A stretch of 64,000 nt of DNA from Microthrixaceae bacterium (lineage in GTDB: Bacteria; Actinomycetota; Acidimicrobiia; Acidimicrobiales; Microtrichaceae). This document shows, one piece after another, positions 29,378-54,349 of the stretch (positions within the stretch are counted from its first letter, which is position 1; every line of letters begins with the position of its first letter). The DNA is taken from contig JAOSKI010000004.1 of the NCBI GenBank assembly GCA_027493675.1, positions 36,894 to 100,893 on the forward strand, written 5' to 3'. The translations under genes were made by a program, and so were the position numbers. Under the pieces are notes generated by a model, which was not told the origin of the DNA, did no database searches, and saw only the letters and a program-made list of their open reading frames with translations.

Positions 29378-29413
29378 TGGTCGTGGCGATGGTCGTGGCG
29401 ATGGTCGTGGCGA
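29378..29413 (+). repeat. Three tandem copies of tggtcgtggcga
   Basis: Three exact 12-bp copies in tandem (29,378, 29,390, 29,402) in the 260-nt gap between the MFS gene and the LURP-one gene. They keep frame but no real ORF uses them (the minus-strand RHDHRHDH reading is a shadow). The gap otherwise shows nothing I can assign. Confidence 0.85.
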
Positions 29414-29568
29414 TGTCGGCGTGGTCGAAGCACCTTGGGTGAGTCGGCGCTAGTGTCGTCGGCGCGCCGGTCGGGGCGATCTGTTGTGCCCGGCCACTCG
29501 CGGCGCTTCGGATCGACCACGAACCGGGGTTCCCGGCAGGGGATGAGACATGGGCTTGTTGCGCAACC

Positions 29569-41887: not shown

Positions 41888-43067
41888 GCCGCATCGACAA
41901 CCTGATCCGTGAGCTATGCCCCGAACGGTGTGGAGTACCGCGCGTTGGGTGAGATTCAGCGAACAGCGCGGAATGGCATGCGGAAGACCGACTTCGCTGA
42001 TGCAGGAGTGGGCTGCATCCTACTACGGCCAGATCAACACGTACTACGGGACTGGGTTGACGGAGACGATCTCCTGCATCCCGCCGGAGAACCTTCCTAA
42101 CTTGATGGGCGAAGGACCGGGATCATCGTGATCAACACGAGCGAGAACCTCGACGACGTCTGCAAGGCGGTGGCCTGGTAGGCGACGGTCAGATCGTGAC
42201 GGGCGGGCGAAGCCCCCGTTCAGTCTATCGCACGACCAAGATCGAAGTACCTCCTCCTACTTCCTCCAGACGGCGCAGTTCCATGCGGAGAAGAAGCGAC
42301 ATGCGACGGGGACGAAGGTCATCGACGTGTCAGCGAAGCGCCTCGCCAAGATCCGGATTCCGGTGCCGCCGATGGAGGTGCAGCGGGAGATCGTTCGTGT
42401 GCTGGACTTGTTCCAGTCGCTGGAAGCGGAGCTGGAAGCGGAGCTGGAAGCACGCCGCCGCCAGTACGCCCACTACCGCGACTCCCTCGTCCGGTTCGAT
42501 CGAGGCACGCCAATCATTGGTAGGTGGGCAAGGTCTGCCGACATGCGATGAACCCGGGCGCATGACGCCCTGCACCAAGTGGGCTCAGCGCAGCCGTATC
42601 CCTCACGGCGCCCTCATCCGTCGACTTCGTGAGTGAATGGCATTCGAGGGTGACGTTTCTGTTGACCACCCACGATGGCGCCACCTGCTTGGTCATCGGC
42701 CGCCAATTGCGCTTGTGCGGGAACGTAAGCGGGTTGCCGGACGGTTCATCAGCCACTGAGCACGCAGTGAGTTCCCGTCTACGCCGAAGATCGCATCGCA
42801 TCGACATGGAGACCTACCTGAACTCGATTGATCATCACCCTGGGTCTCAGGAGGACGAAGTCAGCGCAACTGGGCCAGCGTCGTTTGAACCGCATCCCGA
42901 TTCCACGCCCGCCTCTGCCTGAGCAGGAGCGGATCGTTTCGATCCTGGACAACTTCGACGCGCTGGTGAACGACCTGTCGGTCGGGCTTCCTGCCGAGCT
43001 GGCGGCTCGCCGCAAGCAGTACGAGCACTACCGGGATCGGCTGTTGAGCTTCGACGAAGCTGCGTGA
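41884..43067 (+). CDS. hsdS: Type I restriction-modification system specificity subunit (badly frame-broken)
   Basis: The protein starts [13 protein letters not shown] then [11 protein letters not shown], a typical HsdS opening. The first target-recognition domain includes ADAGVGCI...[10 protein letters not shown] and ends with the conserved helix [31 protein letters not shown] second conserved region ends the gene: [29 protein letters not shown]...[16 protein letters not shown]. So two recognition domains and two spacer helices are present, about 390 aa. The second domain (42,520-42,850) is hard to read in any frame and may be damaged or simply error-rich. Confidence 0.85.
42420..42450 (+). 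repeat. 12-bp tandem repeat encoding LEAE in the HsdS spacer helix
   Basis: ctggaagcggag occurs twice exactly and a third time in part (42,420, 42,432, 42,444), giving [11 protein letters not shown] in the coiled coil that spaces the two recognition domains. In EcoR124-type HsdS, copy number of a similar 4-aa repeat changes the gap in the recognised DNA sequence. Confidence 0.8.
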
Positions 43068-43342: not shown

Positions 43343-43746
43343 GCACCGTTCTCGTCGACACCAGCGCCTGGTCACGGTTCTACCGCAGCGACATCCCCGA
43401 GACCGACCCATACGTCTCAGCAGTGCAGCATGAGATCGCGGCACGCGGGGTCGTGACCACTGGCGTCGTCTACCTCGAGCTCCTGCGAGGGTTCACGCAA
43501 TCCGGCACCAAGGAAGAGATCCATCGGCAGTTCGACTCCGTGCCGTTCATCGAGCCGAGACGCGCCGACTACGCCGGGGCAGCAGAGCTCGGCACACGTT
43601 GCCGTCGGGCCGGTGTGCAGCTCGGCGCGGTCGACGCCCTCATCGCACAGGTCTGCATCGCCAACGACCTCACCCTGCTCACCGCGGATGGTGACTTCGT
43701 GCACGCCGCTCGGCATGTCCCGCTGAAGCTCTGGGCGCCGACATGA
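43339..43746 (+). CDS. vapC: VapC PIN-domain ribonuclease toxin
   Basis: An intact 135-aa PIN protein: MSTVLVDTSAWSRFYR (first Asp), VYLELLRGF (Glu), GAVDALIAQVCIANDLTLLTADGDFVHAAR (later acidic residues). It starts with TTG inside the antitoxin stop, and its own TGA overlaps the hsdR ATG (ATGA). Expected to be a Mg-dependent RNase held inactive by the adjacent VapB. Confidence 0.93.
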   Translation: MSTVLVDTSAWSRFYRSDIPETDPYVSAVQHEIAARGVVTTGVVYLELLRGFTQSGTKEEIHRQFDSVPFIEPRRADYAGAAELGTRCRRAGVQLGAVDALIAQVCIANDLTLLTADGDFVHAARHVPLKLWAPT

Positions 43747-46700
43747 GCCTCAGGACGACGACCGACGGCGCAGCGCCCCGCTACGAACCGATCGCGATCA
43801 GCGCCGAGAGCACCGTCGTCGCCGAGTTCGTCCCCGACCCCTCAGCAGATGCGGGCTACCAGTCCGAGGCCGATCTCGAACGGGCCTTCGTCGCCCTACT
43901 TCAGGAGCAGGCCTACGAGTACCTGCCGATTACCAGCGAAGCGGAGCTGATCGCCAACCTGCGGACCCAGCTCGAAGCACTCAACGGCATCGAGTTCTCC
44001 GACACCGAGTGGGAGCGGTTCTTCGGCGAGCGGATCGCCGGTGAAAAGGACGGCGTGATCGACAAGACGACCCGGATCCAGGAGGACCACGTCCAGCTCC
44101 TGCGCCGCGACGACGGAACGACGAAGAACGTCGCGCTGATCGACAAGACCAACGTCCACAACAACCGGCTCCAGGTCATCAACCAGTACGAGGTCACCGG
44201 CACCTACGCCAACCGCTACGACGTCACGGTCCTCGTGAACGGCCTGCCGATGGTGCACGTCGAGCTCAAGCGCCGCGGGGTCGACATCCGAGAGGCGTTC
44301 AACCAGATCGACCGGTACCAGCGCGACAGCTTCTGGGCCGGATCAGGGCTGTTCGAGTACGTGCAGCTCTTCGTGATCAGCAACGGCACGCTCACCAAGT
44401 ACTACAGCAACACGGTGCGCACCCGGCACCTCGATGAGCGCTCGGGTGCCAAGCGGGCCCGCAAGACCTCCAACAGCTTCGCGTTCACGAGCTGGTGGGC
44501 CGACGCCACCAACCGCCCGATCGAGGACCTCGCCGGGTTCGCCAAGACGTTCTTCGCCCGCCACACCCTGCTCAACGTCCTCACCCGCTACTGCGTGCTG
44601 ACCGCGGATCGCACGCTGCTCGTGATGCGCCCCTACCAGATCGTGGCCACCGAGCAGATCCTGCAACGGATCCAGGTGTCCACCAACTACAAGCAGTGGG
44701 GCACCGTGGCCGCCGGCGGCTACGTCTGGCACACCACCGGTTCGGGCAAGACTCTCACCAGCTTCAAGACCGCCCAACTCGCGACCAGGCTCGCGGGTGT
44801 CGACAAGGTGCTGTTCGTCGTGGACCGCAAGGACCTCGACTACCAGACGATGAAGGAGTACGACCGATTCCAGAAGGGTGCGGCCAACTCCAACACGTCG
44901 ACCAGGATCCTCAAAGCCCAGCTCGAGGACCCCGCGGCGCGGATCATCATCACCACGATCCAGAAGCTCGCCACCTTCATCAAGGCGAACAAGGGCCACG
45001 AGATCTTCCACGGCCACGTCGTGGTCATCTTCGACGAGTGCCACCGATCCCAGTTCGGCGACATGCACACGGCGATCACCAAGGCGTTCAAGCGCTACCA
45101 CCTCTTCGGCTTCACCGGCACCCCGATCTTCGCCGCCAACTCGGGTAGCGGTGGCAACCCGCAGCTACGCACCACCGAACAGGCCTTCGGCGACAAGCTG
45201 CACACCTACACGATCGTCGACGCGATCACCGACCGCAACGTCCTGCCGTTCCGCATCGACTACGTGAACACGATCAAGATGCCCGAGGCGATCGCGGACA
45301 AGCAGGTGAGCGCGATCGACAAGGAGAAGGCGCTGCTCGCGCCCGAACGAATCGCGCAGGTCGTCGCCTACATCCGCGAGCACTTCGACCAGAAGACCAA
45401 GCGGGCCTCGCACTACTCCCTGTCCGGCAGGCGCGTCCGCGGCTTCAACTCGCTGCTGGCTACCGCGTCGATCGACGCGGCCAAGCGCTACTACAACCAG
45501 TTCGCCCTCCAACAGGAGGGGCTGCCGACCGACCAACGGCTCAAGGTCGGCCTCATCTACAGCTTCGCCCCCAACGAGGCCATCGACGACGATCTGCTCC
45601 CCGAGGAGGACCCCGACCCCGACGGGCTCACCTTGGAGTCACGTGAGTTCCTCGAACACGCGATCCAGGACTACAACGACCTGTTCGCCACCAGCTTCGA
45701 CACCACAGCGGACAAGTTCGAGAACTACTACAAGGACCTGTCTCTGCGTCTGAGAAACCGTGAGATCGACCTGGTGATCGTGGTCAACATGTTCCTCACC
45801 GGCTTCGACGCCACCACGCTCAACACGTTGTGGGTCGACAAGAACCTGCGGTCCCACGGGCTCATCCAGGCCTACTCACGGACCAACCGGATCCTCAACT
45901 CCGTCAAGACCTTCGGCAACATCGTCAGCTTCCGTGACCTGGAACAGGAGACCAACGACGCCATCGCCCTGTTCGGCAACCCCGACGCCCGAGGCATCGT
46001 GCTGCTCAAGCCGTACGCGGAGTACCACGACGAGTACGCCGCACGGGTCGCCGAGCTGCGGGCCGAGTACCCGCTCGGTCGACTGATCGTCGGCGAGGAG
46101 GCCCAGAAGGCGTTCATCGCCCTGTTCGGATCGATCCTCCGGCTGCGCAACATCCTTGGCGTCCTTCGACGACTTCGCGGGCAACGAGATCCTCACACCT
46201 CGGGAGATGCAGGACTACCAGAGCATCTACCTCCACCTCTACCAGGAGTTCCGCGCCCAGAGCGACGCCGACAAGGAGCCGATCCACGAGGAGGTCGTGT
46301 TCGAGATCGAGCTGATCAAACAGGTCGAGATCAACGTCGACTACATCCTGATGCTCGTCGAGCAGCACCGCGAGGCCAAGGGCGACGGCGCCGACAAGGA
46401 GATCCGCGCAGACATCAACCGTGCGGTCGCCTCCAGCCCCTCGCTGCGCAACAAGCGCGACCTCATCGAGGAGTTCGTCGACTCGCTGTCGGCCACCGCC
46501 GAAGTCGACGCGGCCTGGGCGGCGTTCGTCGCGGCGAAGCGCACCGAGGAGCTCGGCCGGATCATCGCCGAGGAGGGCCTCGACCCGGCCGCCACCCGCG
46601 CCTTCGTCGACGCGGCCTTCCGCGACGGATCGATCCAGTCGAGCGGCACGGCGATCACCGAGGTCCTCCCGCGGGTCTCCCGCTTCGGGTCGGACGGCGG

Positions 46701-46773
46701 TCACGCCGCGAAGAAGCGGACCGTGCTCGCCAGGCTCGGCGAGTTCTTCGACCGTTTCTTCGGCCTCAGCTGA
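43743..46773 (+). CDS. hsdR: Type I restriction enzyme endonuclease/translocase subunit
   Basis: The N-terminal nuclease domain has [23 protein letters not shown] (D...ExK active site). The SF2 helicase core has Walker A HTTGSGKTLTS, DEAD-like FDECHRS, motif III GFTGTP and a late QAYSRTNRILN motif. Cleaves unmodified DNA after ATP-driven translocation, with HsdM and HsdS. About 1,010 aa. One frame break near 46,160 splits off the C-terminal helical domain (SFDDFAGNEILTPREMQDY ... LGEFFDRFFGLS). The gene is otherwise clean. Confidence 0.95.
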
Positions 46774-46797
46774 TCGCGTGGCACTGCCACTTGCCCA

Positions 46798-46870
46798 TGG
46801 AATCCAGGACCCGAGAGGAGAATCGAACTCCTGACGTGCTGTTTGCAGGTCGTGGGTCGAGTGCCCACCC
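46798..46870 (-). repeat. tRNA-3'-end-like repeat, copy 1
   Basis: The minus strand reads GTCAGGAGTTCGATTCTCCTCTCGGGTCC, a perfect T-arm (AGGAG-TTCGATT-CTCCT) with an acceptor-like strand. It is preceded by a second hairpin, GTGGG-CACTCGA-CCCAC. Copy 2 at 51,911-51,984 is about 85% alike over 73 bp by eye. No full cloverleaf can be drawn, so this is a relic tRNA or attachment-type sequence. Confidence 0.7.
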
Positions 46871-46893
46871 GTCGGTCTGTTGGGGTCCCGCGC

Positions 46894-48353
46894 TCAGGCG
46901 GGTGCGGGTGGTCGCTCTACCGGTGGTTCGGGTGGTTGTTCGCCTGGCGGCCGGGGTGGTCGTGGGCGGTGTTGGGTGGGTAGTTGGAGTCCGGTGGCGG
47001 TGGTGATCGTGAAGTAGCCGTCAGGACCGCTCGGGTGGGGACCGTTGAGGCTCATGGTCCAGCCGGTGCGGTGCACGATGCCGTGGTGGTGTCGGCACAA
47101 CAACACGAGGTTCACGATGACGGTTTGGCCGTCGTCGGCGTATTCGATGACGTGGTGTGCGTCACACCATCCGGGTGGGGCGTCACATCCGGGGAACACG
47201 CATCCGCCGTCGCGTACCGCGAGCGCGCGGCGCATCGCCCGGTTCGGTAACCGGAGCCGTTCACGCACCGCTACGGGCATGCCCAGGTGATCAAGGAGGG
47301 TCTCTGAGATCTGGGAGTTGCATACCAGTAGCTCCCATTGGGTGGGGGGTGAACCACAACCTGTTGCCGGCTATGTCGGTAACCGGCACACCGATGAGCG
47401 CCCCGGGCCCGGGCCGGTCTGAACAGCATCCAGTGGCGGTATCACCGGAACCGTGGGGGGGGGGGGGGGGGGGGGTGGGTGCCGTTGAGTGCGGCGGCGA
47501 GGATCGGGTCGATCTCGCCTGTTCGGTCGGTGTCGATGACCAGGTTCATCTCGGTGACCGTGCAAGCCGTGGTGTTGTCTTGCCTGGTTGTGGCACCGCG
47601 GCGGATGAGCTCGATGAGGGCTTGGGCACGGATCTGGGTTCTGGTGGGCATCTCGAGCTCTGGGCACCGCCTGCGATCGTCACGGATGCGGCGCCACATC
47701 CGGTTCGTCTCGGCTTCGAGGAGCTCTTCGAAGGTCACTCCGTCGGTGCCACACAGGGTGGCGTCGATGACCAGTTCATCGGCGCTGCGTCGCATCGACA
47801 CCTTCGATTTCGCCTCTGTGGGGTCATGACCGCCGTCGGCATCGGCGTAACGGGCGAGATCGTCGACCAACGCGGTGAACCGTGACCATCCCGGCTCCGC
47901 TGCCGACAGCGCCAACAACGCGTCTTGTGCGGCACCGAACGCATCCGCGTTGCGGTCGTTGACCCGAGCGGCGATGAACGCCGCACGTTCGAAGGTGATC
48001 TCACCACGACCGGCCGCTTCGAACAACTCATCAAGATCTGCTCGCAGACGCCTACCGGCACGAATCTCACGGTTCACAGCGGTACGAGAACGTCCGTGAC
48101 GACGCTCGAACCACACACCCGTAGCGGTGCCGTAACGGATGTCGCACAAACCGCGGCGGTCCACCTCGGCAAGCACTCCCGCGGATGCCGCATCCAGTGA
48201 CCGGCGAGCTGCTTCGATGTCGTCGACCATCCCAAGGCACTCCTCATCGGACAGCTCCTTCGCATCCACACCGGCCAGAGCACGTGCCGTGGTGATCACA
48301 CCAGCGGTGCTCCCCGACCCGTCCCCACAACCACTTCCCACAATCGAACCCAT
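46894..48353 (-). CDS. HNH endonuclease with DUF222 (13E12 repeat family)
   Basis: The N-terminal DUF222 region reads VDDIEAARRSLDAASAGVLAEVDRRGLCDIRYGTATGVWFERRHGRSR. The C-terminal HNH nuclease has CVFPGCDAPPGWCDAHHVIEYADDG and NLVLLCRHHHGIVH with the zinc-type Cys and His residues. These genes are multi-copy in actinobacteria and often mark mobile regions. A 21-base C-run (coding strand) near the middle and a break near 47,300 disrupt the frame. ATG 48,353 is chosen; an upstream GTG at 48,446 is possible. About 485 aa. Confidence 0.88.
47455..47475 (+). repeat. 21-base G homopolymer inside the HNH/DUF222 gene
   Basis: An uninterrupted run of 21 G on the plus strand encodes a polyproline stretch on the coding strand (HPPPPPPP). 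Length errors here are likely; it may also be a slippage-prone tract. Confidence 0.9.
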
Positions 48354-48539
48354 GTTCGATACCGTACCAACCCCGTGAGACATCGACGAAACCCGGGATC
48401 CGACTCCGCATCGGTCCCACGGATCCGCCCGGAGAGCCACGGACACCCATCCGGGCGTTCATCCTCCTCGGGCCGGTCGACCACAATGGAGCGGTGCGGG
48501 GATCCTCTGGCCATGACCACACAGCCGGTGGCCACACGT

Positions 48540-49648
48540 TCAGGACGATGAGGTCCCCGAGTCGACGAACGGGTCGGAGTCCGACCTCTTCGGTCGACTC
48601 GCCCGGATCGTCGCCCACAGCATCCGGAGGTCCCTGCTCGGCGTGTAGGTCCGTCCGCGGCGCTCACCGACCGCGGCCAGCAGGTCGGCTTCGACGAGCC
48701 GCTTGAGGTCTCGCGTCGCGGTCAGCTCGGCGATCTCCTCGCCGTCGCTCTGCGCGACGAGTCGCCGATATGTTGCGTTGCCAAGTCGGAGGCCGCGGGC
48801 TGCGTCCGCGAGCGGCCCGATCGAGCGGCTCGGCAGACCCCGCTCCCGGACCAGGTCCTCGAGGCCGGTCCAGAGCTGCTCGGTTTCCTCGACGCGACGG
48901 AGGAGCGTCCGGGCCTGGCGGTGATGTGCGGTGAGGCAGAACCGGACCCACGGCAGCGCGTCGTTGCCGGGGTTCCAGGCGCCCTGGCCCACCGCAGCGA
49001 GCACCTCGTAGTAGGCGGTGGCGTTGCGACCGAGGTACTCCTCGATGCTGGAGAACTCCGGGGCGAGGATCTGTTCCCGTGCGAGCACGAGCGTGTGGAG
49101 GCATCGGGCCATGCGGCCGTTGCCGTCGCTGAAGGGTGGATCATCACCAGGTTGAGATGGGCCATCGCGGCTCGGAGCACTGCGTGGTCATCGGTGTCGG
49201 AGGTGGTGTCGAGCGTTGACACGAGCTCCCCGATCAGCTGGGGAACGAGCTCCCGATCGGGGGCCTCGAAGACGAACTCGTGGTCCTCCTCCCGCTCGAC
49301 CCAGATGGCACCCGGTCGCCACTGCCCGGGGTTCTTGGACAGGTCATGGCGGATCATCATGAAGTGCAGGGACTTGAGCAGGGACTCGTCGATGGACGGC
49401 GGTTCCGGGTCGCGGGCGATCTGCATCACGTACGTCAGCGCATCGCGGTAGCCGCGCAGGGCGAGACGGGTCTCCTCGCCGGCTTCGAGTGTCTCCTCGT
49501 CGTCAACCGCAGCGAGGACGTCGTCGAGGGACGCGTCGTAGCCCTCGATGCTGTTGGAGCCCTGGACGTTGCGGGCGAAGGTCAATCGACGGAGGCTGCC
49601 GAGCCAGCGTCGCCGGTCGCGAACGTTGTGCCGCAGCTCTGAGCGCAT
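48540..49648 (-). CDS. Fic-family protein with N-terminal Fic_N-like region (second copy)
   Basis: RLTFARNVQGSNSIEGYDASLDDV contains the inhibitory motif SNSIEG; the active site reads HPFSDGNGRMAR once a frame break at 49,135 is closed. A C-terminal winged helix follows (EEIAELTATRDLKRLVEADLLAAVGERRGRTYTP). About 370 aa; likely self-inhibited AMP transferase. An upstream extension (SQLGEPELRVIDELD) in the same frame suggests the true start lies past 49,648, near ATG 49,709, behind another break. Confidence 0.87.
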
Positions 49649-49827
49649 CCGGTCGAGCTCGTCGATGACTCGCAGCTCGGGCTCGCCGAGCTGTGAAAGC
49701 GTAGATCATGCCTCTATGATAGTTACTAACTCCATCAGTGCCGATAGTTGGTAACCATCTGTTCGACGCGTGTCCTTCGAGTCGGTGATGTGGGACGTAC
49801 CGCTGTCCGTCGCCGAATGAACCGCTG

Positions 49828-50163
49828 TTATCCGTGGATGTCCAGGGTGGTTGGGTGAGACAAATGGTGAGGAGCGACGGGGGAGCTCAGGGCAACGTCG
49901 AGGTACCGACGGAGGCTTGCCGATGACCTCGCTGGTCGTCTTGTGTTGAGCTGCTTGCACGCCCTCGACCGCATCTTTCAAGCTGGGGTCCGTGCGTACT
50001 GGCACCACCTCGGCGGGTGCCGTGCTGAGATCGGTCGACCCGCCGTCGGGTCTGAGGCCCTCGACGTCGTAGCCCCGCTCGGCTTCGTCCGCCAACGCTT
50101 CGATATCGGCGTCGGTGAGCACCTTCCGGAGGCCGTGCGATAGGTCTTCGTTGGTTCAGTCAT
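49828..50163 (-). CDS. Antitoxin, ribbon-helix-helix/CopG-like
   Basis: MTEPTKTYRT then, after a break near 50,130, VLTDADIEALADEAERGYDVEGLRP, a TA-typical acidic segment. It continues RTDPSLKDAVEGVQAAQHKTTSEVI, then after a break near 49,915 SLRRYLDVALSS, a CopG-like motif in which the helices bind DNA. The stop TAA is at 49,828. The start overlaps the end of the upstream toxin gene by 8 nt. The order is toxin first. Confidence 0.7.
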
Positions 50164-50437
50164 GGTCGTGACCTCCTGGGAGGAGCTCGTGGTCGACGGG
50201 TCGAAGCGGCATGGCGTGGATCACCATGAGGCGACCGTCAGCGAGTTGCAGGAGGATGACCTCGCGAGGTTGCCCGCGCTGTCGGGGGCCGATCACGAGC
50301 ACCTTCGGCGGATCGGCGTGCTCGTCGATGTCGACCACGACGATGGCGTTGTCGACCACGTGCTGAATCGTCTCGTGGTCGATGCCGTGCCGTCGTGCCG
50401 ACCGATGGAACCCATACCCGATTAGTGTGATACACAA
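50156..50437 (-). CDS. Small toxin of a TA pair (DUF4258/BrnT-like)
   Basis: An intact 93-aa protein: FHRSARRHGIDHETIQHVVDNAIVVVDIDEHADPPKVLVIGP...EVILLQLADGRLMVIHAMPLR. The short alpha-beta order and basic N-terminus with HxxRxHGI resemble DUF4258/BrnT-type RNases; the family call is tentative. TTG at 50,437 is a weak start inside a small palindrome (gtgtgatacac). It precedes and overlaps the CopG-like gene. Confidence 0.65.
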   Translation of the reverse strand: MCITLIGYGFHRSARRHGIDHETIQHVVDNAIVVVDIDEHADPPKVLVIGPRQRGQPREVILLQLADGRLMVIHAMPLRPVDHELLPGGHDHD

Positions 50438-50477
50438 ATGGGCCTTCCCGTGGTTCGGGACTGCGCCTGGCAGGCCG

Positions 50478-50779
50478 TCAAGTCGCCGGGCGAAGGAGGA
50501 CCGCTACTTCGAGGTTCAGAGCCGTGGCAACCTTCTGCAGTGTCGTGAGCGTGGCGTCGACGCCGCCGGCTTCGAGACCCGCGATGGCCGCCTGACTGTC
50601 CCCATCCGCGAGGCGAGCTGCTGGGTCAGGCCCGCGGCTTCCCGGGCGTCGCGGACCTGTTCACCCACCTCCAACGCCAACCGGGTCGCAGTGTAGGTGG
50701 CGTCAAAATCGTCGCCTTCAGCCGCAGACATCTGATCCAGACGCCGGGCCTTCAGGTCATTGATCGTGGTTCGTGCCAT
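50478..50779 (-). CDS. XRE-family antitoxin (HigA-like)
   Basis: MARTTINDLKARRLDQMSAAEGDDFDATYTATRLALEVGEQVRDAREAAGLTQQ, then after a break near 50,610 LASRMGTSQAAIAGLEAGGVDATLTTLQKVATALNLEVAVLLRPAT. The HTH with G-L-T-Q-x-x-L-A and the C-terminal strand are typical of HigA-type antitoxins. About 98 aa. Its ATG overlaps the TGA of an upstream frame (TGATG), where the toxin gene would be. Confidence 0.78.
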
Positions 50780-50960
50780 CAGTCGTCCTGCTCTGCGGCG
50801 AGGGCCTCCGGGGTGCAAGGCACCCGCGATCACGGTGCCGCTCATCACGACGGTGCTGACGCTCACACCGGGCCTCGCCTGCGGTCCAAGAAAGGGGCAG
50901 GTCCGCAGCCGACAGGCCATGCACGATCAGAGTCAGGTCTGAACGCCGATCTGACCATGC
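50779..50960 (-). pseudogene. Relic of a toxin gene upstream of the XRE antitoxin
   Basis: A frame ending ALAAEQDD overlaps the antitoxin ATG, and upstream another frame reads SDLTLIVHGLSAADLPLSW, faintly like the C-terminal IVHGF strand of RelE/HigB toxins. Only ~180 nt remain before the tRNA-like repeat, so a complete ~100-aa toxin does not fit. It may be truncated by the neighbouring insertion. Confidence 0.35.
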
Positions 50961-51000
50961 CGGCAACCCTGTGATGCACGGGCCTCGACGGGTCCGGACA

Positions 51001-51060
51001 GAGCCCGAGCTCGGATTCGAATCGACCACCTGTTGTTTACAAGGCGTCCTTGGACCATCC
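51001..51060 (-). repeat. tRNA-like repeat, copy 3 (diverged)
   Basis: The minus strand reads GACGCCTTGTAAACAACAGGTGGTCGATTCGAATCCGAGCTCGGGCTCT. It resembles the anticodon loop, T-loop and acceptor of a threonine-type tRNA (CTTGTAA loop), but stems pair poorly. It shares CTTG-AACAACAG-TGGTC and CTCGGGCTCTG with copy 2. Confidence 0.5.
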
Positions 51061-51150
51061 ACACCGTGAGACTGCGTCGACTGTGGCCCGGAAACTCTCA
51101 AGGGTCTCGCGTTCACGCCGTGCCGCTCGATCCACCCGATTCGCCCTCGC

Positions 51151-51173
51151 GGATTAGCAAGGGATTAGCAAGG
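51151..51173 (+). repeat. 11-bp tandem repeat, left of the doc module
   Basis: ggattagcaag is present twice in tandem (ggattagcaagggattagcaagg), 10 nt past the doc stop. Its counterpart lies on the other side of the module at 51,853. Confidence 0.75.
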
Positions 51174-51182
51174 GGCCAGCGT

Positions 51183-51590
51183 CTACTCGCTGTCGTCGGG
51201 CGCGATCCGGGGTCGTAGCCAGGTGGCGGTCTGTGCTTGGTCCCATTCGCCCGATGCGATTGCGAGCACGGCGTGTTCGGCCTCGTCGACCGTTGGCGGC
51301 TCGACCCACGTCCAGTCGTTGAGGACGAGGAAGTACCGCAGCGCCACCCACGCGACGCGCTTGTTGCCGTCGGGTAGCGGGTGGTTCTTGGCGAGCCGGA
51401 CGATGAGCACCGCTGCCTTGTCGACGAGGTCCGGGTAGAAGTCGTCGTCGCCGAACCCCGCCGCCGGTGCGTGGAGTGCCGAGTCGGCCAGTTCGAGCTT
51501 GGCGACCTTCGTGATGAGGCCTTCGTCGAGGCCGGTGACAGCAGCAGCGATGCCGACGTAGTCGGCGAGGTCGAGGTACTCAGCGCTCAC
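51183..51590 (-). CDS. doc: Doc-type Fic toxin (death-on-curing)
   Basis: An intact 135-aa protein with the Doc-variant Fic loop HPLPDGNKRVAW; the Lys in place of Gly is characteristic of Doc kinases, which phosphorylate EF-Tu in the studied P1 system. ATG start overlaps the antitoxin stop by 4 nt (ATGA). YLDLADYVGIAAAVTG is the usual N-terminus. The module is bracketed by direct repeats. Confidence 0.92.
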   Translation of the reverse strand: MSAEYLDLADYVGIAAAVTGLDEGLITKVAKLELADSALHAPAAGFGDDDFYPDLVDKAAVLIVRLAKNHPLPDGNKRVAWVALRYFLVLNDWTWVEPPTVDEAEHAVLAIASGEWDQAQTATWLRPRIAPDDSE

Positions 51591-51796
51591 TTCGCGAGGC
51601 GTTCGAGCAGCTCGCGGTCCTCGTCGATGATCTGTCGCACGCGCTGCTTGAACTTCGGATCCCGGCGGCGCTGGTCGATCGCGGCAGACAGGGCGTCCTT
51701 GATGGTCTCGTTCACGCTCTTGCCCTCCACCCGGGCGAGCGCCTCGGTGTCCGCTGCCAGCTCGTCGGGGAGTCGAACGGTCATGTTCTTCGTCAT
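51587..51796 (-). CDS. Ribbon-helix-helix antitoxin paired with doc
   Basis: MTKNMTVRLPDELAADTEALARVEGKSVNETIKDALSAAIDQRR is an Arc/CopG-type ribbon-helix-helix (strand TVRLPDEL, then two helices), with a short charged tail. 69 aa from ATG 51,796; the longer track start adds unlikely residues. P1 doc is paired with Phd, so an RHH partner here is a known but less familiar combination. Confidence 0.9.
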   Translation of the reverse strand: MTKNMTVRLPDELAADTEALARVEGKSVNETIKDALSAAIDQRRRDPKFKQRVRQIIDEDRELLERLAK

Positions 51797-51852
51797 GGTG
51801 TCATGATACCGCGCTACCAGCCGAACGCATGAGCCGCGCTGTGACGGTCGGC

Positions 51853-51874
51853 GGATTGGCAAGGGATTGGCAAG
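51853..51874 (+). repeat. 11-bp tandem repeat, right of the doc module
   Basis: ggattggcaag twice in tandem (ggattggcaagggattggcaag), the same unit as at 51,151 with A to G changes. Together they flank the 615-bp RHH-doc module. Confidence 0.75.
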
Positions 51875-51910
51875 CGCCGGATCCTGAGAGTCCCGAGGGC
51901 AGAAAACCCC

Positions 51911-51984
51911 TGGAATCCAGAGCCCGAGAGGAGAATCGAACTCCTGACCAGCTGTTGTTCAAGTCGTGGGTCGAGTGTCCACCC
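51911..51984 (-). repeat. tRNA-3'-end-like repeat, copy 2
   Basis: The minus strand reads CTGGTCAGGAGTTCGATTCTCCTCTCGGGCTCTGG: a perfect 5-bp T-arm stem around TTCGATT, then an acceptor-like strand CTCGGGCTC. A 5' partner GAGCCCGAG is missing, so it is not a complete tRNA. Translated on the plus strand it gives REENRTPDQL, the well-known false protein sequence of tRNA ends; the ORF starting at 51,829 is therefore extended wrongly through it. Confidence 0.75.
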
Positions 51985-51996
51985 AGGTCCGAAACC

Positions 51997-52997
51997 GTGA
52001 GACTGGAACCGGATGTGGCGGCTGACGCGATGATGGACGTCGTGGAGGACTTCGTCGTGGCCCGGAATCCCGATGCAGACTCGGCGCTGCCGTACCTGGT
52101 GCGACTGCCGCTGGGTCCTCAGGGCATGGTGCTGAAGGTGCGCGACACGTGGCCTCGCACCGCGAAGGTGTACTGCCACCCCTCTCAGGACTGGGACGAC
52201 TCGGTCGAGGTGGTGGAGCGCGTGCCGGTCCGCTCGTGTGTGCGTCGGGGTGCGGCGATCGACCTGGTGTTGGACCGCGGTCGGGAGAACCGGTCGCAGT
52301 TCGTCTTCACCCGTGCTCGTGGCCGCGAAGTGATCTTCTGGCAGAGCGCTCGCACGGCGAAGCAGGCCCGGCCGGCGGTGAGCACACCGACACGACGCGC
52401 TTCGGGGCTGGTGCTCGAGATCCTCGTCGACAGCCACGAGCGCTACCCGTGGAAGTTCTCCGCCCAGCAGGCGACGACACGGCGACAGGCGTTGCCCGCC
52501 GGCGACTACGCGGTCGAGCTCGACGGTCGGATCGTCGCGGCGGTCGAGCGCAAGAGCCTGGCGGACCTGTCCTCGACGCTGACGACCGGCAGGCTGCGCT
52601 ACCTGCTGGCGGCACTCGACGAGCTGCCTCGTGCAGCGCTGGTGATCGAGGACCGCTACTCGGCGGTGTTCAAGTCGAGCTTCGTGGCGCCGGGTGTGTT
52701 GGCCGAAGGCCTGGCCGAGGCGCAGGTCCGGTTCCCGGCCGTGCCGATCGTGTTCTGCGAGACCCGCCCGCTGGCACAGGAGTGGACCTACCGGTTCTTG
52801 GGAGCGGCGCTCTCTCATGACGCGGAGGACGCACCTGCGGCGCAACGTGCCGCGGGCTGCCGGCCGCAGGGCCGTTGGCCCCCGCAGCGCCGACCGCTGC
52901 GGAGATCCGTGCCTGGGCGGTGGCCAACGGTCACGAGATCTCGGCCAAGGGCCGCATCCCGGCGTCGGTGCGCGAGGCGTTCGACGAAGCGAGATGA
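51997..52997 (+). CDS. ERCC4-type nuclease with C-terminal Lsr2-like DNA-binding tail
   Basis: The central ERCC4 nuclease core reads VDSHERYPWKF, LPAGDYAVELDGRIVAAVERKSLADLSSTLTTGRL, i.e. the GDY...ERK-x(3)-D signature of XPF/MUS81-type nucleases. The last ~35 residues, after a break near 52,865, read PTAAEIRAWAVANGHEISAKGRIPASVREAF, the Lsr2 C-terminal AT-hook-like fold (RGRIP-type loop KGRIP). The first ~130 residues are unassigned. About 333 aa. GTG 51,997 avoids reading through the tRNA-like repeat. Role in repair or defence is inference. Confidence 0.85.
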
Positions 52998-53119
52998 AGG
53001 CTGCACGGTGATCTCGGTCAGGTCGCCAGGCTCCACGAGCGCGTCGATCGCTGAGCGTCACCGCTCTCGTCGACGAGGCCTGGGTGGAGGTCGTCGCCGC
53101 CGAACCCTGCGACTGGGGC

Positions 53120-54349
53120 TCATCGATCGAAGTCGGTGTTGCGGACCATCGCGAGGTCGAGCGCGAAGTCGCTCCGGTCGAACGCGGCGGGATCGAAGTC
53201 GGGCCCGACGAAGTCGAGCCCGCTGTCGGTGCTGCCGGGGCGACCGGCGAGGGAGTCGAGCAGGTCCTGGTAGCCCCACGTACCGCCGCAGTCCTCCGGA
53301 GGGCAGGCCCGACGGCCGCCGATGCAGTCGGGGACCGGTGTGGCCGGGTCGGCCGGGGTGATCTTCTCGACGGTGATCTTGTGGCGCCAGTTGTCACCGA
53401 AGTCGTAGGTGTAGCTCGAACGAAGTGCCCTCTGTGGCCACATCGTGGAGGCTTGTGGTGCGCTCGTCGACCGCCGGCGGCCCGAAGTCCCAGTCCGGGT
53501 CGGGGACGCAGTAGCGGGTGCGGCCGATCTCGAAGTCGTGGAGGTGGCAGTTCCACCACCCGAAGGCAGCCTGGATGACCTCGTGAAGCTCGCCCAGGCT
53601 GCTCGAGCCGTCGACCAGGATCCGCCGCCAGATCGGCGGCTTGGTGCCCAGCAGAGTGACCTTGAGTTGGAACACCGATCCGGCGGTGGCGGAGCGCTGT
53701 ACCGGCGGTGTGGCCGACGTCGACGTACCGGCATCGACGGCTGCCCCCGAACCGGGGAACGCGATGATCGTCGCAGTGCGCTCCGGCATCCCTGGGAGCT
53801 CTGGCATCCCTGGGAGCTCTGGCATCCCTGGGAGCTCTGGCACCCCGAGGCCTGGCACCCCTGGCCTGGCGCGCTGTCGGCGAGGAGCGCCACGAGCGCA
53901 CGATCTGGGAACCCGTGGGTCGAACCGAGCGGACCGGTGGGGGTGCTCGCCATGCGGATCGAGAGCGCGTTGAGGTCGCCGTCGAAGACGTGCTCACCGA
54001 GGAACGCGAACTCGTTCATCACTCCGACGACGCTGCGGTCGTTGGTGGGGCGAACCGGACCTCGGTCATCGCGGGCCCGCTCGGCGGCGATGACCGAGGG
54101 ATCGACGCCGTGCAGCGTAAGGATCCCGGCGATCTCGTCGGGGATCCGCTGGAGCAGCTTCGGCGCCGGGGCCAGCGGCATGAACACCGGCAGGAAGGTC
54201 GTGGCGTTCACCAGCAGCGCGACCTGTGGCTTCCAGAACAACGCCGTTGCGAACCAGTCGCCGAGAACTCCGGTCGAGACGTCTCCATCGGTGGCCGCAG
54301 GCCCCTTCACCCGGTCACGGAGCTTCTTGGTTCCTCGCACGATGAGCAT
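53120..54349 (-). CDS. DUF6933 / plasmid pRiA4b ORF-3-like fusion protein
   Basis: The N-terminal ~150 residues (MLIVRGTKKLRDRVKG...GDWFATALFWKPQVALLVNATTFLPVFMPLAP) match my recall of DUF6933. After a Pro/Gly hexapeptide linker and a frame break near 53,860, the pRiA4b ORF-3 domain reads KVTLLGTKPPIWRRILVDGSSSLGELHEVIQAAFGWWNCHLHDF. After another near 53,425, SYTYDFGDNWRHKITVEKI follows. Both parts are common in plasmid-linked and phage-linked genes without a settled function. About 410 aa. Confidence 0.78.
   Translation of the reverse strand: MLIVRGTKKLRDRVKGPAATDGDVSTGVLGDWFATALFWKPQVALLVNATTFLPVFMPLAPAPKLLQRIPDEIAGILTLHGVDPSVIAAERARDDRGPVRPTNDRSVVGVMNEFAFLGEHVFDGDLNALSIRMASTPTGPLGSTHGFPDRALVALLADSAPGQGCQASGCQSSQGCQSSQGCQSSQGCRSALRRSSRSPVRGQPSMPVRRRRPHRRYSAPPPPDRCSNSRSLCWAPSRRSGGGSWSTARAAWASFTRSSRLPSGGGTATSTTSRSAAPATASPTRTGTSGRRRSTSAPQASTMWPQRALRSSYTYDFGDNWRHKITVEKITPADPATPVPDCIGGRRACPPEDCGGTWGYQDLLDSLAGRPGSTDSGLDFVGPDFDPAAFDRSDFALDLAMVRNTDFDR
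53785..53838 (+). repeat. Three exact 18-bp tandem repeats encoding a PGMPEL linker
   Basis: ggcatccctgggagctct is repeated three times without change (53,785, 53,803, 53,821). On the coding strand this gives a collagen-like PELPGM hexapeptide linker between the DUF6933 and pRiA4b domains. Degenerate further copies follow to ~53,870. Confidence 0.92.

Follow-up and report, generated by a model that had tools for sequence, protein, structure and literature searches.

Among described mobile elements, two kinds come closest to the locus analysed here. One is the cis-mobilizable element (CIME), described in PMC5704250 together with tandem accretion at tRNA genes; the other is the tRNA-targeted cassette (PMC7771536, PMC10872708) of additive genomic islands, which build up at tRNAs through the addition of small cassettes. 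Such tRNA-targeted cassettes, with direct repeats of tRNA sequence, are known from Actinomarinales (PMC7771536) and Methylophilaceae (PMC10872708); Actinomarinales genomes reportedly have no toxin-antitoxin genes (PMC7771536). Tycheposons, as described in PMC10872708, are cargo-carrying elements of 4-200 kb found at tRNA genes, with a tyrosine recombinase.

The locus lies in a 64-kb stretch of DNA (the window) on contig C4 of a 3.44-Mb genome (G000), assembled in 45 contigs with an estimated completeness of 56%. Here, a cassette of ~0.93 kb carries genes for a ribbon-helix-helix (RHH) antitoxin and a Doc-like toxin. Like a CIME, it is without integration and transfer genes, has kept both attL and attR (the attL with an altered core), and forms a tandem array with related elements at a tRNA 3' end. 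Unlike a CIME, it is smaller than 1 kb, has one toxin-antitoxin pair as its cargo and shows no trace of an ICE or IME backbone. Moreover, both of its arm pairs have near-standard spacing, and the same ends surround other cargo in other genomes. As in additive island cassettes, a direct repeat of part of a tRNA is found at the cassette end, with tRNA-Thr 3' fragments on both sides. In contrast to those cassettes, the present case allows both ends to be identified together with the arm-type repeats, and a relative that shares these ends carries an integrase; the cargo, moreover, is often a toxin-antitoxin pair. Tycheposons are similar in carrying cargo at a tRNA gene and in their link to a tyrosine recombinase, but the window cassette is far below their size range and has no recombinase of its own.

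Integron gene cassettes are small and integrase-less, stand in arrays and have common ends with attC hairpins, and their cargo often includes toxin-antitoxin pairs. The cassettes considered here are likewise small, arrayed, integrase-less and united by common ends, often with toxin-antitoxin cargo, but their boundaries are tRNA 3' fragments and arm repeats rather than attC, and no integron integrase was seen. A limited search of the open-access literature returned no cassettes that consist only of a toxin-antitoxin pair bounded by tRNA fragments. On the sequence evidence, we consider it probable that the window cassette is a non-autonomous integrative cassette, bounded by the attL and attR of an element whose tyrosine integrase targets tRNA-Thr, with the RHH-Doc pair as its sole cargo. 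By extension, some chromosomal toxin-antitoxin pairs may move about as near-minimal integrative elements.

The RHH-Doc cassette and its tRNA-Thr fragments

All features of the cassette and its array are on the minus strand, and their coordinates are those of the window. According to open reading frames and a domain search, RHH and Doc are the only genes between the two ends. The RHH gene (51587-51796) matches PF01402 (E 1.2e-5); its inferred start is MTKNMTVRLPDEL, with the ATG at 51796, a later start picked within a longer open reading frame. The toxin gene (51183-51590) encodes a Fic/DOC domain (PF02661, E 2.7e-10, 41.4 bits vs a cut-off of 24). We label the protein Doc-like because it scores below the curated Doc subfamily cut-off (TIGR01550, 35.3 vs 38.65 bits). 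Its motif is HPLPDGNKR, and canonical Doc has Phe where this motif has Leu. As in Phd-Doc, the Fic/DOC-family toxin is encoded downstream of the antitoxin, although the antitoxin here is an RHH protein and not Phd. The two genes are predicted to form a toxin-antitoxin pair.

The original prediction described the same 11-bp tandem unit on either side of this pair, which is confirmed. The two copies, GGATTAGCAAG x2 at 51151-51172 and GGATTGGCAAG x2 at 51853-51874 (22 bp each), have no other matches in the window at up to 3 mismatches, and the mean in 100 dinucleotide shuffles of the window was 0.00. Read on the minus strand, the left pair is CTTGCCAATCC x2, a repeat also found between a tRNA and an integrase gene elsewhere, and the right pair is CTTGCTAATCC x2. 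A gap of 10 bp separates the doc stop codon from one arm pair, and ~57 bp separate the RHH start codon from the other arm pair; the two genes thus fill the interior. No PF00589 (integrase) match was found in the window part of contig C4. The left end, which we call A-type, extends from the tRNA fragment to the cargo (51838-51918; model R2, E 1.5e-22) and is 93% identical to the DNA 3' of an intact tRNA-Thr on contig C1 of the same genome. The A-type right end (51044-51172; model R1, E 1.4e-35) shares 111 bp at 93% identity with the right end of an element on C1.

The tRNA-like repeats reported further out proved to be true 3' parts of tRNA-Thr(TGT), running from the anticodon loop to the end of the gene. 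Fragment 1, on the attL core side (51919-51963), agrees with the intact tRNA-Thr of the same genome at ~42 of 45 positions, and its core is altered, with CTTGAACAAC in place of CTTGTAAAC. By comparison with the intact gene, fragment 2, on the attR core side (51001-51043), has kept the CTTGTAAAC start and the CTCGGGCTC end, and its T-arm is decayed. To these we add a third fragment, absent from the earlier description (46810-46847; 36 of 38 positions). Neither ARAGORN (window) nor Rfam (46.5-52.5 kb) calls the fragments, which are too short. Their identity thus rests on the comparison with the intact tRNA-Thr of the same genome, and standard tRNA annotation misses them. ARAGORN found no intact tRNA in the window, the high end of which is the contig end.

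The cassette is part of a tandem array of such elements (46.8-52.0 kb). On the minus strand, it is followed by a B-like element without an integrase (46870-51000), which is closed by fragment 3. This element carries HTH, DUF4258-like and Fic-like genes, of which the DUF4258 match and a second Fic match are both under the cut-offs, and it matches the B element region of C1 at 84% in two stretches (50932-51170 and 50465-50817). An ERCC4-domain nuclease gene (52000-53000) adjoins fragment 1. An 87% identical relative of this gene lies ~1.1 kb 3' of tRNA-Thr(TGT) in another genome (G315), and a 66-bp piece occurs after the array on C1.

An integrase-bearing relative and an empty site

A search of the source genome with the right flank led to more copies, on contig C1. 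This contig has an intact tRNA-Thr(TGT) (L012 8209-8282), behind which come the same spacer and repeat pair (CTTGCTAATCCCTTGCTAATCC) and then a tyrosine integrase gene. Two tandem elements, A and B, extend from this tRNA, each closed by a tRNA-Thr 3' fragment. Element A (~12 kb) encodes integrase A, a TrwC relaxase and a TraI-like helicase, and element B (~4.4 kb) encodes integrase B, a Gp49-like gene with an adjoining HTH remnant, and an Mrr-type nuclease. The window cassette matches element A over its first 74 bp (92%) and its last 111 bp (93%), with no match in the interior, and the spacing from arm to tRNA core is nearly equal in the two at both ends. Element A is IME-like with the same ends, and the cassette has no remnant of its backbone. 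Integrase A is split over three frames, through either sequencing error or real decay. Since HsdR (window 43743-47006) and the C1 integrases run across several frames, and given the completeness of 56%, the assembly looks indel-rich.

The same genome has a second array on contig C12 (11265-31004; L112, L113), in which an intact tRNA-Glu(CTC) is followed by five tRNA-Glu 3' fragments. Its end sequences are repeated, and some of its elements have integrase matches; two short ones (1.3 and 1.6 kb) have none. An AbiEii match in this array was below the cut-off and is not counted.

A comparison of related genomes for precise presence and absence, proposed with the original prediction, yielded such a pair for an A-type right end but not for the window locus itself. 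In one genome (G292), the tRNA-Thr is intact and runs into its flank without an insertion. In a second genome of the same genus (G108), an A-type right end is followed by a 43-bp tRNA 3' part and then by the flank seen in G292. The two genomes match over 3,008 bp at 96.6%, beginning exactly at CTTGTAAAC. From this pair, the outer boundary of the A-type right end is known to the base, and the crossover can be located to the anticodon loop or its immediate vicinity. The window locus without the module was not found in two genomes of the same genus as the source, in which the neighbouring ERCC4-domain DNA is absent, and no close relative with the exact window locus was found.

The 11-bp repeats are most likely arm-type integrase binding sites, to judge from where they lie, how they are spaced and their tandem form. 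With up to 2 mismatches, they occur in 6 of 298 genomes of the order, the source genome included. They are found directly between a tRNA and a PF00589 integrase gene in G079, G135 (tRNA-Glu) and G005 (tRNA-Arg), as they are on C1. For this reason, we regard them from their genomic context as part of the attachment region of tRNA-targeting tyrosine integrases, and not as specific to toxin-antitoxin genes. Occurrence of the repeats without the module, named at the outset as a possible refutation, was seen in one respect only, in that an integrase-bearing element has the same ends. Four of the eight matches to the exact motif among species genomes closely follow a tRNA or a fragment of one (Thr, Lys, Ser, Glu). 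The other four (L079, L080, L081, L083) have no tRNA nearby and no recognised integrase, so the motif by itself is no proof of an att site. The exact arm pattern had no match in the viral contigs searched, and a link to phages was thus not found. In a Bacillota MAG (JAAYXB010000033.1; L078 179-1450), a tRNA-Lys is followed by three CTTGCCAATCC-like repeats and then by a nucleotidyltransferase and HepT-like pair; the nucleotidyltransferase match is weak, and there is no second tRNA fragment within 8 kb.

Ends and cargo in other genomes

The ends of the window cassette recur around different genes. At a tRNA-Thr(CGT) in G309, A-type left and right ends surround an Xre-RES pair and one unknown gene, on a contig with no integrase match. 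A third end type, C, occurs at tRNA-Thr(CGT) in four genomes (G316, G317, G215 and G072) and closes at least eight cassettes, which have only their last ~100 bp in common. Their cargo includes MNT-HepT (G317), DUF433-DUF5615 PIN-like pairs (G215, and G072 at 0.8 kb), LtrA, an aquaporin-like protein and others. LtrA is in opposite orientations in two G316 cassettes, and related Gp49-like genes are found in the B element of C1 and also follow an A-left end in G274 and a C-left end in G315. Given the swapped cargo, the Gp49-like genes behind different ends and LtrA in both orientations, the sequences indicate that ends and cargo assort independently.

By our raw count, a recognisable toxin-antitoxin pair is present in ~6 of ~17 fully bounded integrase-less cassettes. 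The cassette-bearing contigs of G316, G317, G309, G310, G215 and G274 have no PF00589 match; G072, G315 and G308 were checked for integrases by reading of open reading frames and tblastn with integrase B only. Two loci, in G167 (L020) and G274 (L066), have an A-left end each and no matching right end; we rejected them as complete cassettes and did not count their genes. The end models R1-R3 were built from loci first spotted by tRNA fragments, so their matches beside tRNA fragments are partly by construction, and searches with them mainly show that further copies are few.

Homologues of the toxin (E<=1e-20) are present in 73 of 397 genomes of the order. In a genome of another family (G264), RHH-Doc is bounded on both sides by tRNA-Gly(GCC) 3' fragments, which match exactly over 49 bp and are 1.03 kb apart; the cargo there is oriented opposite to that of the window cassette. 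ARAGORN called one of these fragments as a full tRNA-Gly, a call that we rejected because its 5' half is unlike tRNA-Gly. Among 27 Doc loci with full flanks, the window included, strong flanking direct repeats (66-148 bp, bit scores 79.7-139) were found in G264, G037, G007 and G321, besides the window. For comparison, the top score among 108 mismatched control pairs was 62.5. A set of 120 random positions contained one higher score, from a long 69% repeat of 890 bp, and two scores of 64, each from what proved to be a genuine tRNA-fragment array. The RHH-Doc repeats in G037, G007 and G321 (L125, L126, L130; 82-148 bp) are not recognisable tRNA pieces and are kept apart from the tRNA-bounded cases. 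By eye, a similar upstream gene family is found next to RHH-Doc at each of these three loci. The RHH-Doc copy in G314 is frameshifted and 88.5% identical; it has no such ends, and homology stops at the edges of the pair.

Possible mobilisation, decay or exchange of the cassette

As no integration enzyme lies inside the cassette, it would have to borrow one. With the tRNA 3' fragments as core and the tandem 11-bp repeats as arm-type sites, we infer that an integrase from elsewhere in the cell, for instance from a relaxase-bearing relative such as that on C1, could bind the arm sites and recombine the anticodon-loop part of the core (CTTGTAAAC). Recombination would circularise the cassette or insert it, the target being either a tRNA-Thr 3' end or a tRNA fragment already present; repeated insertion would build tandem arrays. 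In this scenario, RHH-Doc may act as a stabiliser, an addiction module that penalises loss and holds the array in place. A small, presumably mobile cassette that uses tRNA 3'-end sites, as first proposed for this locus, is still the best reading. Several features speak against free mobility at present, namely the altered core of fragment 1, the decayed T-arm of fragment 2, the lack of an intact tRNA in the window, and the split integrase A, if that is not a sequencing error. Given its altered attL core, the window copy may now be fixed. We also count against the cassette reading the end-less copy in G314 and the failure to find this exact locus in any close relative. Since the arms and the tRNA core, a relative with an integrase and the same ends, and cassettes whose cargo has been swapped are all identified, mobilisation in trans is directly testable.

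A broader idea, which we offer tentatively and think rather unlikely, is integron-like gene capture on tRNA 3' ends. Integrase-less cassettes that share standard ends but differ in an interchangeable cargo would be added serially at tRNA-Thr (and tRNA-Glu and tRNA-Gly) by tyrosine integrases acting in trans, and toxin-antitoxin cassettes would stabilise the resulting arrays.

The main rival to a trans-mobilised cassette is a decay remnant, a CIME in the strict sense. A full element with integrase and relaxase would have lost its backbone by deletion and never have moved as a small unit; its ends would have survived together with the toxin-antitoxin pair, the latter because its loss is costly. 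In favour of this account are element A on C1, which joins the same ends to an integrase and a TrwC relaxase, the altered cores of the window copy, and the fact that tandem decayed elements are common at tRNA genes (PMC5704250). However, the backbone has left no trace, only the ends match, and the room between the arms is taken up by the two genes. The same clean deletion would also have been needed many times, given the other pair in G309 and the many integrase-less cassettes with common ends. We give this account an appreciable chance, well short of even. It differs from mobilisation in trans mainly in history, and the readings can overlap; our confidence in each was therefore judged separately, and the values do not sum to one.

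It is improbable, in our view, that homologous recombination pasted the pair between pre-existing att ends, with no site-specific integration in its movement. The G314 copy, with homology ending at the pair edges, and the occurrence of cargo in both orientations relative to the ends would fit such an exchange, but it leaves unexplained the tRNA fragments that bound each cassette and the empty-site pair of G292 and G108, and flanking homology that would allow such recombination was not seen. Chance or an assembly artefact, in which an ordinary chromosomal toxin-antitoxin pair happens to have repeats and tRNA fragments on its sides, might be suspected in an assembly of 45 contigs with 56% estimated completeness and apparent indel errors, but zero chance matches are expected for the 22-bp repeats. 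In addition, this architecture is seen again in other genera and in another family, in assemblies independent of this one, a recurrence that already refutes the explanation; its probability is negligible.

The window contains other short tandem repeats. An 18-bp unit is repeated ~5 times at 53780-53864, inside a predicted PRiA4_ORF3-like coding region. Perfect 12-bp tandem repeats are found at 29378-29415 (TGGTCGTGGCGA x3.2) and at 42419-42451 (GCTGGAAGCGGA x2.8).
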